From contig CM060989.1 in assembly GCA_030765065.1 (NCBI GenBank), positions 35,827,501 to 35,891,500 of the forward strand: a DNA stretch of 64,000 bases, read 5' to 3'. Made by a program: the position numbers and the translations under genes. The DNA comes from Deroplatys truncata. Lineage: Eukaryota; Arthropoda; Insecta; Mantodea; Mantidae. The notes under the pieces were generated by a model that worked only from the letters and a program-made list of their open reading frames with translations, searched no databases and was not told the DNA's origin. Position 1 is the first letter of the stretch. The number at the start of each line of letters is the position of its first letter. Below are positions 1,579 through 59,126 of this stretch, one piece after another.

Positions 1579-2457
1579 TGAGGCAGTATTTTCAACACTT
1601 AAATGATTTCAGTATAGTTATATAATATATAAATTCAATAACAGCCCGCCTTAAAGCAATATGTGTATGTAACAATATATAAAAAAGTGTATATTACAGT
1701 CATTGTATATGTTTATATAATTGTATACGTGTGCAATAATGTTATGTGAATGCATTATGTAATTTAATAATGTAGGAGCTGTGAGAAAAATAGGTTAAAA
1801 TTTGCTAACAATGAGGTAACCTTGATGTAATAATGAATTTGAAAGTTTAACAATACTACTTGTAATTCTTGGAAGCAATAATGTAATTTTTGAGACAGTT
1901 TATAAAATAGCCAATCAACAACCAGAAAAAAGCTTAAGTTAAATAAAAGTATTCTATTGGATTAGGTATAGCCAATCAGAGACTTGAAATAAGGAAATTT
2001 ACAAATTTAGGCGGTAGAAATCAAGTCAGTTGCTTGTAGACAGCGCTCATAACTGGACGCGTTGCTTGCAGACAGTGTTTCTAACCGGACGCGAGATGTG
2101 TCCTCGAGAAGTGTAAGCCTACATTCTTAGTCGCACTACTCCCTGCAAAGAAATCCATGTCTCTAACAATAATACTGACGCAGCCGAGGCAAACATAAAT
2201 ATATAATATGTAAAGATTCAGTCAAAATTACAAAGTTAAATTCTTAAATTTTGGACGAAGGCTACCGGGTACCATTCGTGCGGTTGCAATTACTTCAAGT
2301 TCGGCTCCCCAACAGTTGAACTACAATACAACTCCTACTTCAAATTGGCTTTTCATACTGAAACAACAACCTATTTCAAATTGGCTCCCAAAGCGTGGGG
2401 CAAATAACAACGTAAAAATAACAATACAACACCACCATAAGTAAAATAACTACTTCA
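1579..2457 (+). mobile_element. Solo LTR, family LTR-2, with tandem PBS-like cassettes
   Basis: An 879 bp unit starting TGAGGCAG and ending ACTTCA, flanked by the 4 bp target duplication AGGG (1575-1578 and 2458-2461). It shares its body with 8445-9361 and, in reverse, 16046-17008. It lacks about 140 bp near 2100 that the copy at 8445 keeps. Close to its 3' edge are three repeats of ACTTCA or ATTTCA followed by a primer-binding-site-like block: a diverged one at 2299-2321, a decayed one at 2341-2360 and a clear one at 2381-2401 (TTGGCTCCCAAAGCGTGGGG). No coding sequence is present. The Ty3/Gypsy-like assignment is inference from TG..CA ends and the 4 bp duplication. Confidence 0.8.
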
Positions 2458-8444: not shown

Positions 8445-9361
8445 TGAGGCAGTGTTTTTAACACTAAAATGATTTCAGTCTAATTATATAATATATAAAT
8501 TCAATAACAGCCCGCCTTAAAGCAATATGTGTATGTAACAGTATATAAAAATGTATGTAACAGTCATTGCATATGCTTTATTATTGTATCTATGTATAAT
8601 AATGTTATGTGAATATATTACGTAATGTAATAATGTAGGAGCTGTGAGAAATAGGTCAAAAGTTGCTAACAATAAGGTAACAATGAGCTAACCTTGAGGC
8701 AATAATGAGTTTGAGTGTTTAAATGTTACTTGTGATTCTTGGAACCATTAATGTAATTTTAGTGACAGTTTATAGAAATAGCCAATCAACAACCAGAAAA
8801 AGCTTTAGTTAAATGAAGGTATTCTATTTGATTAGGAATAGCCAATCAGAGAATTGAAATACAGAAATTTACAAGTGTAGGCGGTTGAAATTAATTCATT
8901 TGGTTGCAGACAGCGTTACTAACCAGACGTAAAAAGAGTCCTCAAGAAAATCAATACGTATTCGTGTGAGACGAAAACACTTTACGTGTTAAAAAGTGCA
9001 AGTAATTCATAAAAGAATCTCACAGCTCTCTATATCAGTGAAGTGTTATTTAAATCGTATGAAGCATTAATAAAAGGAGTAAATTAAAAATTATAATCTG
9101 TGTAAGCCTACATTCTTAAGTCGCACCACAACCCTGCCAAGACATCCATGTCTCTAACAATAATACTGACGCAGCCGAGGCAAACATAAATATATAATAT
9201 TTAAAGAAACAGTAAAAAAATACAGAGTTAATATTTTTAAAAAATTGGGGCAAAGGCTACCGGGTACCATACGTGCGGTTGCAACTACTTCAAGTGTTGT
9301 TCGGCTCCCCAACAGTTGAACTATAATACAACTCCTTCAATACAATAAAATACCATCTTCA
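8445..9361 (+). mobile_element. Solo LTR, family LTR-2
   Basis: A 917 bp unit with TGAGGCAG start and CATCTTCA end, flanked by AATT (8441-8444 and 9362-9365). The uninterrupted HEL-A at 49415 shows the empty site GGAATTCTAAGG. It is the most complete LTR-2 copy, keeping the segment missing from 1579-2457. A PBS-like cassette at 9300-9320 (CGGCTCCCCAACAGTTGAAC), preceded by ACTTCA, lies inside the LTR. No coding sequence. Confidence 0.8.
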
Positions 9362-15749: not shown

Positions 15750-17708
15750 TAGTGATGGGACGTTGCCACTATTTCTCGATACTCGATACTGATACTGGTT
15801 TTTGAATACCGATATTCCATACTCACTTTATAAAAACTGTAAAGGTGATAGCTTGTTCACTAAATTATATTCTTATTGGTAGTTTTCTGTATATAAACGC
15901 ACGTAACCAACTTTCTATTCTATGCGAATTCCGAAATTGTTTCTCTTTGACATCCTCCGATTGGCAGCATTTTTTATCTTGATAAGTTTACAGGTAATAT
16001 ATCCCTTATTGTTTGTCAAGGCTAATAATAATAATAATAACAATATGAAGAAGTTAATTTGTTGTAGGAGCTTGCACCACGCTTTGGGGTCAAGTTGTAG
16101 TAGTTTGTATTGAAGGAGTTGTATTATATTTCAACTGTTGGGGAGCTGAACTTGTAGCACGTATAGTACCTGCTTTCCGGTAGCCTTCGCCCCAAATGTA
16201 CTTTCAGGTGACCTTTGCCCCAAGTTTTAAACAAAATATTAACTTTGTAATTAAATTGTTTCTTTAAATATTTAATATTTATGTTTCCCTCGGCTGCGTC
16301 AGTATTATTTTAGACACATGGATATCTTGGTAGGGCGTGATGCGACAAGAATGTAGGCTTACACAGATTATAATTTTTACTTCACTCCTTTTATTAAATA
16401 CTTGATACGATTTAAATAACACTTCACTGATATAGGGAGCTGTGAGATTCTTTAATTAATTAATTTGTACTTTTAACACGTAAACTTATTTTTCGTCTCA
16501 CACGAATACGTATTAAATTTCTTGAGGACACTTTTTGCGCCTGGTTACAATCACTGTCTGCAGGCAACTGAATTGATTTCAACCGTCTATACTTGTAAAT
16601 TTCTGTATTCCAAGTCTCTGATTGGCTAATCCTAGTCCAATAGAATACCTTCATTTAACTAAAGCTTTTTCTGGTTGTTGATTAGCCATTTTTAAACTGT
16701 CTCAAAATTTACATTATTGCTGCTCTAAAAATGACTAGTAGCATTTAAACTTCCTTACTCATTATTGCCTCAAGGTTACCTCATTGTTAGCAACTTTAAA
16801 CCTATTTCTCACAGCTCCTACATTATTAAATTACGTAATGCATTCACATAACATTATTGAACATGCATACAGTAATATAAGCATATACAATGACTGTTAC
16901 ATACATTTTACAAATTATTACATACACATATGGCTTCAAGCTGGGCTATTATTCAAATATATATTTATATAATTTGATTAAAATCTTTAAGTGTTAAAAA
17001 TACATTTAATAATAATACATTTTCTTTGCTTCACATTTTATATAACTATATTTTGTGCTGAAAAATATCTTTTTAAGGATTTTCTATTCATAAAAAAAAT
17101 TACTAGAGATTTTTCTTTACTCTGCAATCTTGAAAATATAAACAAATATATTACATGACACTCAAACAACTAAAAATAACAAATATTTCCACGCGCTGCA
17201 TTATCTCACGTCTTGAGTTTTGATTTGTTTCTGCTGGATTCACAGATTTTGGTCATCGAAGCAGGTAAATGTAATGGCTGAGAGTGTGTCACCAAGCCAG
17301 GCTATTGCAGAAACGTGATTTAGTGCGTCAGCTAAATCAACTTCATTCTCAACTCAGCTAACGCAGCATATAAATGAGAACTTCTTCTACTTCCCCCATT
17401 GTTTTACATGTTTTCATTTAGACACAAGGGTCTTTGGAATGTTGCATTCATCCACAGGAAACGCAGTCAAGGTCTATCAAGAACTATAGTGCAGCAACTC
17501 TATAGAGACACGTGCAAGGCAATAAAGGGAAGTCTCGACTCCTTTCATTCCTTATATCGCATAAAGTTAAACGCAACAGTAATGCAAAACTTAAACATTT
17601 AAAAGTATCGAACAGGTATTGAAGGTTTATCTCAAAATATTAGACATACCTCGATACCACCGAGTATCGAAAGTATCGAGGTTCGACGGTATCGAGATCC
17701 CATTTCTA
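15750..17708. mobile_element. Non-autonomous hAT-like DNA transposon with nested LTR
   Basis: Inverted ends TAGTGATGGGA (15750) and, in reverse, TAGAAATGGGA (17708), each followed by TCGATAC-rich sequence. They are flanked by TTTAACAG and TTTAATGG, which agree at six of eight positions as an aged 8 bp duplication. The TAGNGNTGGG ends and 8 bp duplication are hAT hallmarks. No transposase is visible. About half of the length is the LTR-2 insertion at 16046-17008. A (AAT)n run lies at 16022-16040. Confidence 0.6.
16046..17008 (-). mobile_element. Solo LTR, family LTR-2
   Basis: Reverse copy of the unit at 8445-9361, including AGCCTACATTCTTGTCGCA-like, GACGCAGCCGAGG and the R/U5 region. Its 3' edge, in minus orientation, contains cassettes at 16132-16152 (diverged) and 16072-16094 (TTGACCCCAAAGCGTGGTGC) and ends TTCTTCA at 16046. 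The 5' edge near 17008 is diverged, so the target duplication is unclear. Confidence 0.75.
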
Positions 17709-22717: not shown

Positions 22718-22721
22718 ATTT
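22718..22721. other. Target-site duplication ATTT, left
   Basis: Matches 27187-27190 on the other side of the LTR-1 element. Confidence 0.65.
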
Positions 22722-23710
22722 TGATGCAGTAATTTGTATCACAAATTACTTAAATGTAAATAATGATTGTAATATGAATATGCATTTTTATGTGACATTG
22801 ATTTGAGATGTTTATTGATTGTAATTATTGTTGAGAAGTAAGTTTATACTGCCTTACTGAAACTGACAATAATAGCGTGCAATAATGCAGCGAGGGGGTG
22901 AGCTGTTTATCATTATTGGAAACGAGGAAGTTACGTAATGTTGGCGCGTTTTTCTTTTAGAATCTTCTGGAACATTTCCCTAGAGCATATGTATTCATAA
23001 TTTTCATTGGATATAAATATAGACGCTAATGTTGGCGCGTTTTATTAGCCAATTGCAGCTCAGTTATAATCTTTAGGCATATCGGTGTGTATGAGTATAA
23101 AAGGTAGGTTAGAGGTAAAGACCCCGTCAGTTCATCAAAATTCTTTGTACACTACACGTCGCATTCCCGTCAGTTCGTCGAAAATATTTGTATGATACAC
23201 GTCGCCTTCAGTCCAGCAGAAATATTAACCGTCGGCTATCGATTCACAAGTTACGCGTAGCAGAATTATGAAAAATCCAAAGTGTTGTAAAGTTAATTAT
23301 ATAAAAAGTTGAAGTACGCGAATTAAGCGTTATCAGTAATGAAGTTATTATAACAGTTTCAGTTTGGCGAGTGTCAAGATCAATGTGTAAATGTGATAGT
23401 GACTGTGTTTCGACAATAAAAGTGTAAAACAAATTTCTTCATCAGTGTTATCTTTGGATAAAAGATTCCTTTCCGTTTACACAACCTGTATAAAGAGAAG
23501 TGCTCGACCAAAAGGATAATAGCTAGCCGGAGGACAGAGAACCAAAATTAAATAAAATAACAGTAGCATTCTTTCAAACAAACATTAATACTACCGCAAA
23601 TTGCTAACACCAGATGGAGCTACCAAACCTAACAAATGAATCACGTAACAAATTGGCTCCCAAACGTGGGGCTCAACAACAAAATAAATATAACAAATAA
23701 TGTTACTTCA
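22722..23710 (+). repeat. 5' LTR of LTR-1
   Basis: 989 bp from TGATGCAGTAATTTG to GTTACTTCA. It contains a TATA-like TATAAAAGG near 23096 and an AATAAAAG signal near 23416. Its 3' edge carries two PBS-like cassettes (23601-23620, decayed; 23653-23672, TTGGCTCCCAAACGTGGGGC) before the terminal one that lies just outside. Confidence 0.75.
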
Positions 23711-23733
23711 AATTGGCACCCAGAACGTGGGGC
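23601..23733 (+). promoter_or_regulatory. Tandem primer-binding-site-like cassettes, 5' array
   Basis: Three blocks at 23601, 23653 and 23713, spaced 52 and 60 bp. They read TTGCTAACACCAGATGGAGC, TTGGCTCCCAAACGTGGGGC and TTGGCACCCAGAACGTGGGG. The known complement of the tRNA-Lys(CUU) 3' end is TGGCGCCCAACGTGGGGC, which the second and third match apart from one or two substitutions and one or two inserted bases. The third follows ACTTCA directly and is the best placed functional site. Confidence 0.65.
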
Positions 23734-24078
23734 AGAATAACCAGGAAGAAGTGAGATAACCAGGAAGGAGCAAAGGAATCAGGACGTGGAGCGAATGGAG
23801 CAGTGAACTGAACTACAAGACGCAGATTCCAGAAACAACTATAGGAACGACAGACTACGCGGATGATTGGACATCGTAATTCCGAGATTAAAAGGCAACA
23901 GGGGAATTCAAATACAGAACACCAAAACGACGTAGATTCATCATGATACGACGCAGAAGCGACATACAAACCTAGGAGAGAGGGGCAGGAAGCTGGACAT
24001 CAAAGTAACAGCAACAGACAGCATCACAAAGGTCAGAGTATAGTAATTTTTTTTAGAAAACAAAATTGTAACAATCAA

Positions 24079-25215
24079 ATGTACTTGAGGAGCGGTAGGA
24101 TAACGAGAATAATGGCTACTAATAATATTGAAGGAACAATAATGGAAGGGGATAGTGTAACAGTTAGCTGTAATTCAATACAGGTTACAGAAAATAGCTC
24201 AAATAATGTAGTATTTGAGGGAGAAAATGTTAATGAAGAAAGTGAGAATAGAATAGCAGGAAATGTTAATTTTGATGCTAATATGATGATGGAAATGCTG
24301 AAAGATATTGTTAAGAGTAATGAGAAATTAGAACAAAAACTAACTCAGAATATGGAAAAGAATAATGAGAAATTAGAAACACTAACTCAGAATAATGAGA
24401 AATTAGAACAAAAATTAACTCAGAGTATGGAAAAGAATAATAGAGAATTAAGAGAAGATATTAGTAAGAGTATTACAGATCAATTAAGGGAAGATATGCA
24501 AAAGAATAATAGAGAATTGAGGGAAGATATTGGTAAGAGCTTAGAACAAAACAGGGAAGAAATTGAAAAGAAATTCATGGAGCTAGATAGTAGTATGATG
24601 AGAATGAGAAATGAAAATCAGGAAATGATAGCAAATGAGATAGGGGAGGTTTCAAAGAAAATGTTAGACATGAGCAGGGAAATAGGTAACAAAGAAAGTG
24701 AGGTTAATACTAAAAGTGAACATGTTGATGTAGAATGTACAGAGTCAGGTAGTAGAATGAGTAGTATTTCAAGTGAGATAAGAGAGATGAAAGAGGTTAT
24801 GAATGCAGATGTGAATCAGGCGCAAGTTAATTTCAGAGGGGAGATATCAGAAATACAGAATGAGTCAGTAATGCAAAGAAATAGATTGTACGAAGAAGTT
24901 AAAGTTTTGCCTGTAAATAATCAAAAGCTAACTTCTGAAATTAACAAGTACCAAGTTTTTCAAAATGAAAACTCCAATCCAGTACAATTTATGACAGATT
25001 TGTTAGAGTACTTTCAAAGTAAAAAGATAATAGAAGAATTGAAAATGACAATTGTTAAAAGATGTGTTGTTCAGGAAACTTTAGATTGTTTTCAAATGTT
25101 ATCATGGGACGAAATTTCATATGAATACAAGAGGTTATTCATGAACAAATTTTTGAAGGTTAGGATACGGCTACGAGTAATGTTTAGCCACACACAATTT
25201 TATCCAGGAGGGTAA
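24079..25215 (+). CDS. Gag-like protein, C-terminally truncated
   Basis: A 378-residue frame, the only long intact frame in the LTR-1 interior. Residues 1-70 are low in hydrophobics. Residues about 70-290 form a long charged coiled coil with internal repeats (NNEKLEQKLTQ, KNNRELREDI). Residues about 295-360 (NPVQFMTDLLEYF ... LSWDEISYEYKRLFMNKF) resemble the capsid N-terminal region of insect Ty3/Gypsy Gag proteins. After MNKF the frame decays and stops at PGG, so the second half of the capsid and the zinc knuckle are missing. It would make a particle-assembly protein only if helped by a full-length Gag. The start at 24079 follows a leader of about 370 bases after the terminal PBS; a second ATG lies at 24112. 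It could also be a fossil frame kept by chance because the insertion is young. Confidence 0.7.
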   Translation: MYLRSGRITRIMATNNIEGTIMEGDSVTVSCNSIQVTENSSNNVVFEGENVNEESENRIAGNVNFDANMMMEMLKDIVKSNEKLEQKLTQNMEKNNEKLETLTQNNEKLEQKLTQSMEKNNRELREDISKSITDQLREDMQKNNRELREDIGKSLEQNREEIEKKFMELDSSMMRMRNENQEMIANEIGEVSKKMLDMSREIGNKESEVNTKSEHVDVECTESGSRMSSISSEIREMKEVMNADVNQAQVNFRGEISEIQNESVMQRNRLYEEVKVLPVNNQKLTSEINKYQVFQNENSNPVQFMTDLLEYFQSKKIIEELKMTIVKRCVVQETLDCFQMLSWDEISYEYKRLFMNKFLKVRIRLRVMFSHTQFYPGG

Positions 25216-25933
25216 ATATCAATGAGATGTAAAGTAAATGCTGGAGAGTTAAAGTTGAACTGCAGAGAAATGTATTGGAACGTAAGAGGGTTAATTATGT
25301 ATGTATGTCATAAGAAAGGAGAAATAAATTTTGGAACTAACTAAATGTAGGAAAATAACATTTTTTTTAGTAACTGTAACAGTATTTGAAATTAATAATG
25401 TAAAAATTGAAACTTAATATGATATTAAAGTAAAAGTACGTAACTATAATTCCAAGAGTATTGTGAATATACAGTACAAAACAACAAAAATGGGGTAAAA
25501 ATAATTAAAACAAATACTTATGTAACAAACAGAAAAATGTGAAACAGTGCCTAGATTTAAAAGATGTAAATATATTTATGTAGAGGGTGAATATTTTAGT
25601 AAACATGTATAGTAATTACAAAAATTCTTAAATGCACAAATTTTTGTCAAAAATATAAGAAAGTAAACCAGTTTTTGTAACAGTACCTAAATAATTCAGG
25701 GTACAGTACTTGCTATAAAAATTTTTTTTGTAATGTCAGATTAATGTCTAAAAACATTAGACCAGAGCCAGTAAATAGTGGCGAGATAAAGGAAAAACAT
25801 GTCGTGTGTTAAATACGTGTGAAGTGTTAAGTGAAAGTGATAGCGTGTGTTCCAAGATTTAGGAGACTAAAAACCCAATTATAAAATTTCCAAACAAGTT
25901 GTAAATATTCATAATTATGTTTAGTGGGGCATA
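25216..25933 (+). other. LTR-1 non-coding 3' interior
   Basis: AT-rich, stops in all frames. Remnants of gag-like sequence may continue for about 60 bases. A short purine-rich AGTGGGGCATA just before 25934 could be a weak polypurine tract. Confidence 0.55.
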
Positions 25934-27186
25934 TGATGCAGTAATTTGTATCACAAATTACTTAAATGTAAATAATGATTGTAATATGAATATGCATTTT
26001 TATGTGACATTGATTTGAGATGTTTATTGATTGTAATTATTGTTGAGAAGTAAGTTTATACTGCCTTACTGAAACTGACAATAATAGCGTGCAATAATGC
26101 AGCGAGGGGGTGAGCTGTTTATCATTATTGGAAACGAGGAAGTTACGTAATGTTGGTGCGTTTTTCTTTTAGAATCTTCTGGAACATTTCCCTAGAGCAT
26201 ATGTATTCATAATTTTCATTGGATATAAAAATGGACGCTAATGTTGGCGCGTTTTATTAGCCAATTGCAGCTCAGTTATAATCTTTAGGCATATCGGTGT
26301 GTATGAGTATAAAAGGTAGGTTAGAGGTAAAGACCCCGTCAGTTCATCAAAATTCTTTGTACACTACACGTCGCATTCCCGTCAGTTCGTCGAAAATATT
26401 TGTATGATACACGTCGCCTTCAGTCCAGCAGAAATATTAACCGTCGGCTATCGATTCACAAGTTACGCGTAGCAGAATTATGAAAAATCTAAAGTGTTGT
26501 AAAGTTAATTATATAAAAAGTTGAAGTACGCGAATTAAGCGTTATCAGTAATGAAGTTATTATAACAGTTTCAGTTTGGCGAGTGTCAAGATCAATGTGT
26601 AAATGTGATAGTGACTGTGTTTCGACAATAAAAGTGTAAAACAAATTTCTTCATCAGTGTTATCTTTGGATAAAAGATTCCTTTCCGTTTACACAACCTG
26701 TATAAAGAGAAGTGCTCGACCAAAAGGATAATAGCTAGCCGGAGGACAGAGAACCAAAATTAAATAAAATAACAGTAGCATTCTTTCAAACAAAAACTAA
26801 TACTGCCGCAAATTGCTAACACCAGATGGAGCTACAAACCTAACAAAGAATTACGTCACAAAATGGCATCACCACGTGAAGTAAACACACATACACAAAC
26901 ATTATAAGTAATACCATCGCAAATTGGCTACCAAAACGTGGGGCTACAATAATGTTAAATAAATAACATTAGTAAAACACTTCAAATTGGCTCCCAAACG
27001 TGGGGCTCAATAAATAAATAATAACTTAACAAGTATACCACTTCAAATTGGCTACCACAACGTGGGGCTACAAAAATGTTAAATACAAACAAACCATAAT
27101 TGTTACCACAATTTCTCATTGTGCTCGCATTACAAATACAAAAGTGAAATGTATTACATTACAGCAATACAAATCGTCATACTTCA
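25934..27186 (+). repeat. 3' LTR of LTR-1, expanded
   Basis: It starts TGATGCAGTAATTTG like the 5' LTR and is nearly identical to it through about 26790. It is 1,253 bp long, 264 bp longer than the 5' LTR. The extra length is in the cassette region and a terminal spacer. It ends CATACTTCA with ATTT immediately after. The small frame at 27048-27230 is not a gene. Confidence 0.65.
26813..27068 (+). repeat. Tandem PBS-like cassettes inside the 3' LTR
   Basis: Five blocks at 26813, 26863, 26924, 26987 and 27048, spaced about 50-63 bp. The best are TTGGCTACCAAAACGTGGGG (26924), TTGGCTCCCAAACGTGGGGC (26987) and TTGGCTACCACAACGTGGGG (27048). The last two follow ACTTCA, the same six bases that end the LTR. 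Confidence 0.75.
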
Positions 27187-49597: not shown

Positions 49598-50888
49598 CGA
49601 GGGGCACTATTTATATTTTGAGCCTAATAATTAAAACAAAGCAATTTCTGATTGAAAACTGCTTTATTGTTTTTCAAAATATTCTCCTTTATGATCAATA
49701 CACTTTTGCATCCGTTTGAACCATTTGTCAAAGCATTTATTTCAGTCTTCTTGAGACACCTCCAAAACATGGTTTTTGAAGGCATCAACGGCTTCTTCTG
49801 CTAACGAAAATCGTTGTCCACGCAATTTATTCTTGATGTTCGGGAACAAAAAGAAGTCATTGGGTGCCAAATCAGGACTGTATGGCGGATGACCCATCAA
49901 TTCGATTTTTTGAGCCTTCAAATACTCTGTTGTTAGACGAGATGTGTGTGCGCTCGCATTGTCTTGATGAAGAACGATCCTACGGTTCTTGTTGGTTTTC
50001 CTTACTTCACCGAAGACTTCCGGCAAACAAATGGTTGTGTACCATTCGGCATTGACCGTTTTACGTTCCTCTAAAGGCACTGTTGCCACATGGCTAGTTT
50101 TTCTGAAAAAGCAGGTGACCATTTGGTTCGAAGTGCTTCGAATGCGAACTACTTTTGTTGTGTTTGCTTCATCTTGAAACACCCATACAGTCGACTGCTG
50201 TTTACGTTCCGGCTCATACACATAGATCCATGATTCGTCACCTGTTACAATCTTATATACGTCTTTTGAGACACCGCCATTGTATTTCTTGAGCATTTTT
50301 GTACACCAATCGACACCAGCATCTGTTTGAGAGTGCGTCAAATTATGTGGGATCCAACGAGAGCAAACCTTTTTCACGGCTAAATAATCATGCAATATTT
50401 TATATATGCTGGTGGAACTAATGCTTAGGGTTGCCTCAATCTCACAATATGTCGCATGACGATCTTTCATTATTAGTTTTTCCACAGCATCAATGTTTTC
50501 TGGCAAAACAACTGATTTTGGACGACCTTCACGAACTTCATCATTGAGCGAACGGCGGCTACGATTAAATTCGTTATACCAGCATTTCGCAGTGACAAAG
50601 GATGGAGCTTCGTCGCCAATGTGGAAGTTAGTTGATTGATGCACTCTTGTCTTGATAATCCACGTCGAAAGTCGTAATAAATCATTGCACGAACATTTTC
50701 ACGAGTTAATTCCATGTTTTTGTTGATACACAATTTTCAAGTTAGTGTAAACAAAACAAATGACGCTCTATTGACAAAATGTTTGAAGTAGATTATGGTA
50801 AAAAACGTTAAACTTTTCGTTGGAAACGTCAGATGGCACTTACAACATTCAGGGTTGTCATGGCTCAAAATATAAATAGTGTCCCTCG
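49598..50888 (-). mobile_element. mariner transposon, nearly complete
   Basis: 1,291 bp with near-perfect inverted ends: CGAGGGGCACTATTTATATT on the left, and the reverse complement CGAGGGACACTATTTATATT on the right, both followed by TTGAGCC. TA is duplicated at 49596-49597 and 50889-50890. Length and structure fit a full mariner. The transposase is broken at two points only. It is nested in a HEL-A copy. Confidence 0.95.
49664..50715 (-). pseudogene. mariner transposase (D,D34D), two lesions
   Basis: The family cuts and pastes its own DNA at TA sites through a DD34D catalytic triad. The N-terminus starts MELTRENVRAMIYYDFRRGL at 50715. The main frame runs from about 50620 to 49742 and holds the linker REGRPKSVV, catalytic VTGDESWIY, LHQDNASAHTS and YSPDLAPNDFFLF. 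Exactly 34 residues separate the second and third Asp. One base is missing near 50618 (between SRQECINQLTS and GDEAPSF). A TGA at 49742-49744 replaces the Trp expected before KCF. The same frame then continues KCFDKWFKRMQKCIDHKGEY to TAA at 49664. Other substitutions may exist, so the protein would be inactive as it stands. Subfamily not assigned with confidence. Confidence 0.92.
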
Positions 50889-58699: not shown

Positions 58700-59126
58700 T
58701 GGCGCACCAACGTGGCAGCAACTACCATAATTAAAACTGACTAGACTTGCGACACGCATTAGTTAAGGAAGGGAAGAAAAGAAACATGCAAGTGAAGTAT
58801 AGAACAGAAAAGATGACTTCACGACTGTGCAAATGGCGAATAGAAGGTACGAAAAGATAGCTATACGGCCACGTAAGTGAAGAAAGAAAACAAAAAGAAA
58901 AAGACGGTTTCATGACCAAGTAAGTGATGAAACGGAGAATGGTTAAAGAAAAAGGCAACATCTCCTTAGGAAATCAAGAGTAACTAAATATAAAAGATAT
59001 CACTGCGCAAAGTGAAGAAGAAAGTTAAAAGATTGTACTAGAGAAGTCGTAATAAATTGTAGAAGTGTAGAAAGAAAAGTGTATATATCTGGGAAGCAGC
59101 AAGTAAACGGCGCCCAACGTGGGGCC
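58700..59126 (+). other. PBS-like motifs without a recognised LTR
   Basis: TGGCGCACCAACGTGGCAGC at 58700-58719 and CGGCGCCCAACGTGGGGC at 59108-59125 resemble the complement of the tRNA-Lys(CUU) 3' end. The second matches 17 of 18 positions, and a partial TGGCGAATAGAAGG lies at 58834. The first and the partial one follow TGCGCAAA or TGTGCAAA. I could not find an LTR body upstream, where HEL-A remnants lie. They may be the U5 end of a truncated LTR of another family. Confidence 0.4.

Follow-up and report, generated by a model that had tools for sequence, protein, structure and literature searches.

Where does a long terminal repeat (LTR) end when the site that primes reverse transcription is itself repeated? 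In the textbook account a single primer-binding site (PBS) fixes the end of U5 and so makes both LTRs identical. The question is raised by LTR-1, an element at positions 22722-27110 of a stretch of 64,000 nucleotides from the mantid Deroplatys truncata (the window, i.e. the whole stretch analyzed; C15:35827501-35891500 of the 4.29-Gb, 818-contig assembly GCA_030765065.1). The window element is a copy without pol that holds a single gag-like open reading frame (ORF). Our analysis of its genomic copies shows that the U5/leader junction is an array of complete cassettes, each consisting of an LTR terminus and a tRNA-Lys PBS, and makes it probable that priming can take place at any well-matched cassette and that template switching reshuffles the array.

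A genome search gave 3090 first-look candidates with a U5 query and 4901 with a leader query, and 40 of each were scored. A total of 30 5' junctions were used for the analysis (the window copy plus 4, 20 and 5 from the genome searches). Analysis of these junctions revealed that the U5/leader junction of LTR-1 is a tandem array in many copies, variable in number and order. The 30 arrays hold one to seven PBS-like blocks (5, 7, 14, 3 and 1 arrays with 1, 2, 3, 4 and 7 blocks, respectively) and represent 25 distinct block strings. The blocks are about 18-20 nt long and spaced at 48-76 bp in 46 of 50 cases and at 120-136 bp in the remaining four. The five bases CAAAT precede the block in 73 of 80 cases, and among 46 distinct units the divergence is 0.114 for blocks and 0.416 for spacers, which are AT-rich and vary by short indels. 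The CAAAT context and the conservation of blocks compared with spacers thus define the unit as LTR terminus (CA) plus AAT plus PBS plus spacer. This agrees with a sequence-only reading of the window, in which the junction of LTR end and PBS had been taken as the repeat unit itself. That reading had named two findings that would speak against it, a single PBS in the other copies and the absence of a matching tRNA; the copies carry arrays, and a tRNA match was found, yet five of the 30 5' arrays do hold a single PBS.

Blocks were compared with a reference 18-mer, TGGCGCCCAACGTGGGGC, the complement of the tRNA-Lys(CUU) 3' end plus CCA, whose 18-nt length presumably ends at the methylated A58 of the tRNA. 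The genome contains tRNA-Lys(CTT) genes that match the expected 73-nt sequence at 73 of 73 positions, and ARAGORN identified no tRNA gene in the window. These genes form a tandem array with a period of about 144 bp at C9:191137150-191204696 (loci L088-L095) with at least 365 matches; hence the PBS tRNA of these elements is massively amplified. In the four of these eight loci that were scanned, a few genes were called TTT and one Asn. The exact 18-mer occurs in 12 of the 80 blocks of the 30 5' arrays and the remaining 68 are inexact. The last, leader-adjacent block is TGGCACCCAGAACGTGGGGC in 16 of the 30 arrays and the exact 18-mer in seven. With the tRNA 3' end, the exact 18-mer pairs at -46.8 kcal/mol and the window block at 26925 at -30.9 kcal/mol (shuffle means -11 to -15). 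The inexact blocks that occur most often, three types with 2-3 edits, pair at -33 to -37 kcal/mol (shuffle means -12 to -15), and two decayed blocks at -11.0 and -14.7 kcal/mol, near their own shuffle means of -9.4 and -9.2. The likeness of the blocks to the tRNA-Lys(CUU) 3' end, noticed by the sequence-only reading, is thereby borne out. A regular decay gradient along the array was considered and rejected, the mean edits being 2.64, 2.11 and 2.25 at positions 1-3 and 2.10 at the last position, with none clear beyond the decayed innermost blocks. It was also considered whether the leader-adjacent TGGCACCCAGAACGTGGGGC matches another tRNA; the genome pattern search gave no exact tRNA-like site.

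All eight blocks that had been proposed for the window element are present. Five are clear, with their TGGC starting at 23654, 23714, 26925, 26988 and 27049. The other three (23601, 26813 and 26863) are weak, with 7-8 edits, and are supported only with their CAAAT context: for the 18-mer alone 152, 181 and 14 of 500 shuffles were equally good, respectively, and with the preceding CAAAT only 4, 3 and 1. These inner blocks are called decayed cassettes here. Matches within four edits of the 18-mer number 10 on the + strand of the window (five of them in this element) and two on the - strand, compared with 0 or 1 per strand in 20 window shuffles, and Tandem Repeats Finder independently detected the 3' array (26920-27077, period 62, 2.5 copies).

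Several observations were made on the arrays and sites found in the genome. A longer spacer (about 100-120 bp, beginning agttaaaattatg) stands amid the short ones in L010, L012, L023, L033, L043, L057, L071, L084, L096 and L097. L045 and L047 (C3:90625839 and 90622511) are leaders 3.3 kb from each other whose arrays are identical, an arrangement expected of a tandem element sharing its middle LTR. In L008 second-family sequence begins directly after the LTR-1 array and the initial ~25 nt of its leader, as in a two-family chimera. Among 68 one-mismatch matches to TGGCACCCAGAACGTGGGGC, a variant CACCCAGAACGTGGGGC followed by TCGAG- or TCGAT-like bases recurs and is probably the PBS of other LTR families; no exactly matching tRNA gene was found for it in this 68-site genome pattern search.

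If the junction is the unit, the position at which a 3' LTR ends should tell which unit was used. A total of 41 pairs of 5' and 3' LTRs were tried. Of these, 28 were readable with a 4-bp target-site duplication (TSD), exact in 26 pairs and with one mismatch in L037 and L046. Five more, kept outside the 28, were readable without a TSD check (L096/97, L102/103, L104/105, L109/110 and L111/112). Eight were dropped (L032/61, L039/67, L045/73, L048/75, L049/76, L054/81, L058/85 and L107/108) for pol or other DNA replacing the 3' LTR, a tandem element, an LTR of opposite orientation, a 5' LTR cut short or the lack of a 3' LTR within the stretch. Judged by the terminal hexamer for 27 of them, all 28 3' LTR termini are of the type that precedes a block within the arrays; the search for the ends required CA followed by the TSD, hence the CA ending is built in and is not an independent result, and for the nine of 27 pairs with more than one CA + TSD site the cassette-type terminus was chosen, which favours the claim of cassette-type LTR ends.

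For the window itself, the earlier placement of the 3' LTR end at 27186, after ACTTCA, did not hold. The real end is 27110 and the LTR is 76 bp shorter: the segment 27111-27186 matched only the window when compared with the 4.29-Gb genome and, by BLAST, with 105 loci, and an end at 27110 followed by ATTT yields a TSD and a spacer of usual length. The ACTTCA at 27181-27186 is flanking DNA and a chance occurrence.

Comparison of the two arrays of each insertion revealed that in 17 of the 28 pairs the 3' and 5' arrays agree as far as one junction (16 by array distance and L024/L106 by eye); these pairs are termed concordant. For 18 of 27 pairs the terminal 22 nt of the 3' LTR come within three edits of a junction in the 5' array of the same element, compared with 60 of 702 cross-pairs. 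Five of the 17 concordant pairs have a single junction and the remaining 12 offer two or more candidates. The leader-adjacent junction was used in six of these 12 (L009, L037, L038, L043, L060 and L024). In the other six an internal junction was used and further cassettes remain in the leader: the third of four in L002 and L013, the fifth of seven in L023, the second of three in L041 and L056, and the first of two in L098. Edits between the terminal 22 nt and the used versus the last junction are 0 versus 4 in L013 and L023, 0 versus 6 in L041, 0 versus 7 in L056 and L098, and 3 versus 9 in L002. In L041 the LTR stops immediately ahead of a block that complements the tRNA at 18/18 positions, and one spacer and the leader-adjacent PBS lie beyond it in the 5' copy. 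Among the five pairs without TSD, read by eye, three end at the last cassette, L111/L112 ends at cassette four of five and L104/L105 is discordant. As 3' LTRs end at differing cassette boundaries, the LTR end moves by whole units, which had been proposed from the window alone.

The cassettes at which LTRs end also differ in their PBS. The used cassette was defined by the 3' LTR end, independently of PBS sequence. The exact 18-mer is present at seven of 16 used cassettes. Among the remaining cassettes of these arrays it occurs in two of 26 (Fisher p=0.009), and among those within the 27 3' LTRs in one of 35 (p=0.0006). When L024/L106 is added, the figures are 7/17 used and 2/28 others (p=0.009). 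In L009 the exact 18-mer precedes the same leader that mostly carries a 3-edit variant in other copies. Exact 18-mers at used cassettes would be the expected trace of the tRNA copied into plus-strand DNA.

The remaining 11 of the 28 TSD-supported pairs, the window included, are discordant: the array of one LTR differs from that of the other, with about 99% identity over the remainder of the LTR (10 of the 11 measured). The TSDs match in these pairs, so both ends stem from one insertion. Because the window LTRs carry different arrays, the window element is silent on which cassette primed. Between the LTR start and a point shortly before the clear blocks, its two LTRs share 914 of 922 aligned bases; the arrays diverge at a decayed block, and five of the nine differences fall in the last 95 bp. 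Across the pairs, the LTR body is 98.5-100% identical in the 24 of 28 measured (L059/L086, L098, L100 and L024 are left out of the divergence sums, and a gap run is counted once). Differences amount to 30 in 3497 sites for 10 of the 11 discordant pairs and 59 in 7666 for 14 of the 17 concordant pairs, i.e. 0.86% versus 0.77%. Discordance as a mark of older insertions was accordingly rejected, the divergence being without clear difference from concordant pairs. Over the 95 bp that immediately precede the array, differences number 13 in 950 for discordant and 10 in 1330 for concordant pairs. Strong clustering of differences beside the array was likewise rejected for discordant pairs, the effect being modest over the 10 measured. 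In L053/L080 the 3' terminal cassette is identical (76/76) to a cassette of another element, and in L046/L074 a terminal 40-nt stretch without a block is identical (40/40) to L085. Such discordant arrays may well arise when reverse transcription switches template from block to block, for example in an early plus-strand transfer at a block.

The 11 discordant pairs could also have been produced after insertion, by ectopic gene conversion that rewrites U5 arrays, in which case choice of priming site would explain the concordant pairs only. We consider this explanation possible, if rather doubtful. The family is large, as the 4901 leader candidates suggest, the L053/L080 cassette has its identical counterpart in another element, and the discordant pairs are somewhat more different in the last 95 bp, a feature that template switching could equally give. 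Against gene conversion, the upstream LTR is about equally alike in both classes of pairs, so conversion tracts would be nearly confined to the array, and no increase with age is seen.

A simpler explanation would be a U5 minisatellite that merely contains the PBS, whose units are gained or lost by slippage or unequal exchange after insertion while only the leader-adjacent site primes. The short AT-rich indels in spacers, the single PBS in 5/30 arrays and the unlike 5' and 3' arrays in 11/28 pairs are all in its favour; however, loss of units would keep the last spacer as terminus and six elements end in an internal spacer. Furthermore, exact tRNA complements are enriched at the LTR-end cassette, internal ones included (L013 and L041), discordant pairs are not clearly older, and the L053/L080 terminal unit matches a unit of another element and not a local duplicate. 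A minisatellite is therefore unlikely. The least probable proposal, a benefit hypothesis rather than an alternative anatomy, is host evasion, in which mismatched PBS copies (2-nt bulge or mismatch, -31 to -37 kcal/mol) decoy or escape 3'-tRNA fragments: the sections of PMC7472051 considered here describe silencing of PBS-bearing elements by such fragments in mouse and its relief by mismatches, and most blocks are inexact (68/80) yet the tested types pair strongly, but used sites show no avoidance of the exact PBS (7/16).

The preferred reading, an array of cassettes any of which can prime, implies the following cycle. tRNA-Lys(CUU) would prime at any well-matched cassette of the RNA 5' end, and the chosen cassette would set the U5 end for that cycle and be overwritten in part by 18 nt copied exactly from the tRNA. 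The cassettes before the chosen one would become U5 and those downstream would stay in the leader, and as the latter would stay usable in the next cycle, the boundary could shift out and back in whole units. The blocks would also serve as template-switch sites for nascent strands, within one RNA or between two packaged RNAs. Switching of this kind would add, remove and reshuffle cassettes and could give the LTRs of one insertion different arrays. Cassettes that have long been inside U5 would decay, as the inner blocks may have done.

Several results weigh against this reading. The copies analyzed are the best-scoring matches and not a random sample, and the model is drawn from genomic sequence. 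The separation of pairs is narrow, concordant distances being at most 0.054 and discordant ones at least 0.072, with L052, L055 and L057 at 0.072-0.076. The used PBS is inexact (1-4 edits) in nine of 16 concordant pairs; together with TGGCACCCAGAACGTGGGGC as leader-adjacent block in 16/30 arrays, this suggests that overwriting by the tRNA is far from regular. No tRNA gene with a 3' end matching TGGCACCCAGAACGTGGGGC was found genome-wide, the 68 matches all having one mismatch; we read these sites as PBSs of other LTR elements. The 11 discordant pairs misfit a simple choice of priming site and would need recombination. In the other nine of them, beside L053/L080 and L046/L074, matches that reach the end are partial, about 80-92% alike, or absent (window). 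Divergence points, by eye, are near a block in roughly six of 11 and otherwise in spacers, so the blocks are not proven switching hot spots. A further-reaching form of the reading is advanced more tentatively, as falling somewhat short of an even case: the LTR end would have no fixed sequence, its position being selected afresh within a modular array of PBSs every cycle, strand transfer would routinely give the LTRs of a single insertion different ends, and the array would keep a readable record of priming sites.

Table 1. Positions of the LTR-1 element, its cassette blocks and a related block of a second LTR family in the window.
Feature	Position	Strand	Remark
Left TSD ATTT	22718..22721	+	pairs with 27111-27114
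5' LTR (TG...CA), to the CA preceding the leader-adjacent PBS	22722..23710	+	989 bp
Decayed inner block, 5' LTR	23601..23620	+	8 edits from the 18-mer; supported only with CAAAT context
PBS-like block TGGCTCCCAAACGTGGGGC, 5' LTR	23654..23672	+	2 edits from the tRNA-Lys complement
Leader-adjacent PBS TGGCACCCAGAACGTGGGGC	23714..23733	+	3 edits from the exact 18-mer
Coiled-coil ORF, read by us as gag-like	24079..25215	+	378 aa
3' LTR (TG...CA)	25934..27110	+	1177 bp
Decayed inner block, 3' LTR	26813..26832	+	8 edits; supported only with CAAAT context
Decayed inner block, 3' LTR	26864..26881	+	7 edits from the 18-mer
PBS-like block TGGCTACCAAAACGTGGGGC, 3' LTR	26925..26944	+	
PBS-like block TGGCTCCCAAACGTGGGGC, 3' LTR	26988..27006	+	
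PBS-like block TGGCTACCACAACGTGGGGC, 3' LTR	27049..27068	+	its spacer closes the 3' LTR
Right TSD ATTT	27111..27114	+	
PBS-like cassette of the second LTR family, at the U5 end of a copy that ends near 2457	2382..2401	+	clear block

Other features of the window were also recorded. At 23096-23209 (3' LTR counterpart 26335-26421), a 43-bp unit stands twice in tandem after TATAAAAG. Each copy contains TCAGT, which we take to be initiator-like, and the putative R start thus seems to be duplicated too in the window LTRs. Short repeats are present inside the gag-like ORF at 24335-24530, and their number looks variable between copies; no Pfam match above the curated cut-off was found for this ORF. 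Two more PBS-like sites, at 58700 and 59108 (CGGCGCCCAACGTGGGGC at 59108), possibly belong to another element. Elsewhere in the window, the ORF at 49742-50644 is presumably mariner-like.

Concerning classification, LTR-1 has TG...CA LTRs with TSDs (28 of the 33 readable pairs TSD-supported) and a PBS complementary to a tRNA 3' end directly after the LTR. For identical LTRs ending at a fixed U5/PBS junction, the LTR body conforms and the U5 array fails in 11/28 pairs. As the deviation is confined to one end, the window element is still filed as an LTR retrotransposon. The L067 stretch, downstream of L039, gave matches to RVT_1 (5.6e-16) and RT_RNaseH_2 (1.3e-21), and among solved structures its reverse transcriptase (RT)/RNase H is closest to Ty3 Gag-Pol (1.5e-39), followed by another RT/RNase H entry (1.2e-38). 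L076, downstream of L049, holds a stretch nearly identical to the L067 coding stretch. Assigned through the pol of these coding relatives, LTR-1 is a Ty3/gypsy-type element, gag-only in the window copy. Membership of another superfamily was considered and rejected, the pol relative being closest to Ty3 in a comparison with solved structures that included no BEL/Pao reference. The traits of the Osvaldo lineage present here are a tRNA-Lys PBS, LTRs of 989 and 1177 bp and a 4-bp TSD. On these traits alone LTR-1 fits the lineage, for which the sections of PMC3286476 considered here (mosquito cqgypsy elements, Osvaldo) give a tRNA-Lys PBS, LTRs of ~1-2 kb and a TSD of mostly 4 bp.

The layout is probably not confined to LTR-1, as blocks are also found in a second LTR family. 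By eye, its copies at 1579-2457, near 8445-9360 and near 16081-17003 (- strand) have U5 tails with recognisable, more decayed blocks. These tails differ among copies, and blocks occur likewise in the L014 and L029 copies. The cassette array may be a clade-wide habit.

The sequence-only reading knew of no described family with this layout, and our survey of the open-access literature (titles and abstract openings) recognised no LTR family with an array of terminus plus PBS; with subscription literature mostly outside this narrow scope, the negative is weak evidence of absence. The nearest known systems share single traits with LTR-1. Pao elements, of another superfamily, reportedly have tandem R units within the LTR, a title-level description that shares with LTR-1 the tandem units in the LTR and differs in the unit, which is R there and the U5 end plus PBS here. 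In contrast to LTR-1, the Osvaldo lineage is described with one PBS in the sections of PMC3286476 considered, and cqgypsy_1 is described there with a 149-bp tRNA dimer at the LTR/PBS boundary and a 26-nt LTR duplication, not with a PBS-cassette array. Revertants of human immunodeficiency virus 1 (HIV-1) resemble LTR-1 in carrying multiple PBSs close to the U5/leader junction (PMC1084362). Unlike LTR-1, they arose on passage of PBS mutants, and the sections considered of that source describe neither an array in the LTR nor a shift of the LTR end. The same is true of the sections of PMC3185550 on HIV-1 MAL, which describe one partial PBS duplication downstream of the PBS. Template switching that alters the copy number of direct repeats within one cycle is well known from retroviral vectors (PMC3187697); the repeats in the sections considered are vector or enhancer repeats, whereas the priming site itself is repeated here.

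LTR-1 belongs to a familiar kind of element, and what is unusual about it is an LTR end that can move. Single insertions keep a record of the unit used, and exact tRNA copies are the footprint left there. Choice of priming site, overwriting by the tRNA and plus-strand transfer become readable from many natural copies, with thousands of first-look candidates in the genome. In such families the assignment of LTR ends and dating by LTR divergence can mislead, as in the window pair, where identity falls from 99.1% without the array to 96.2% once the array is counted.

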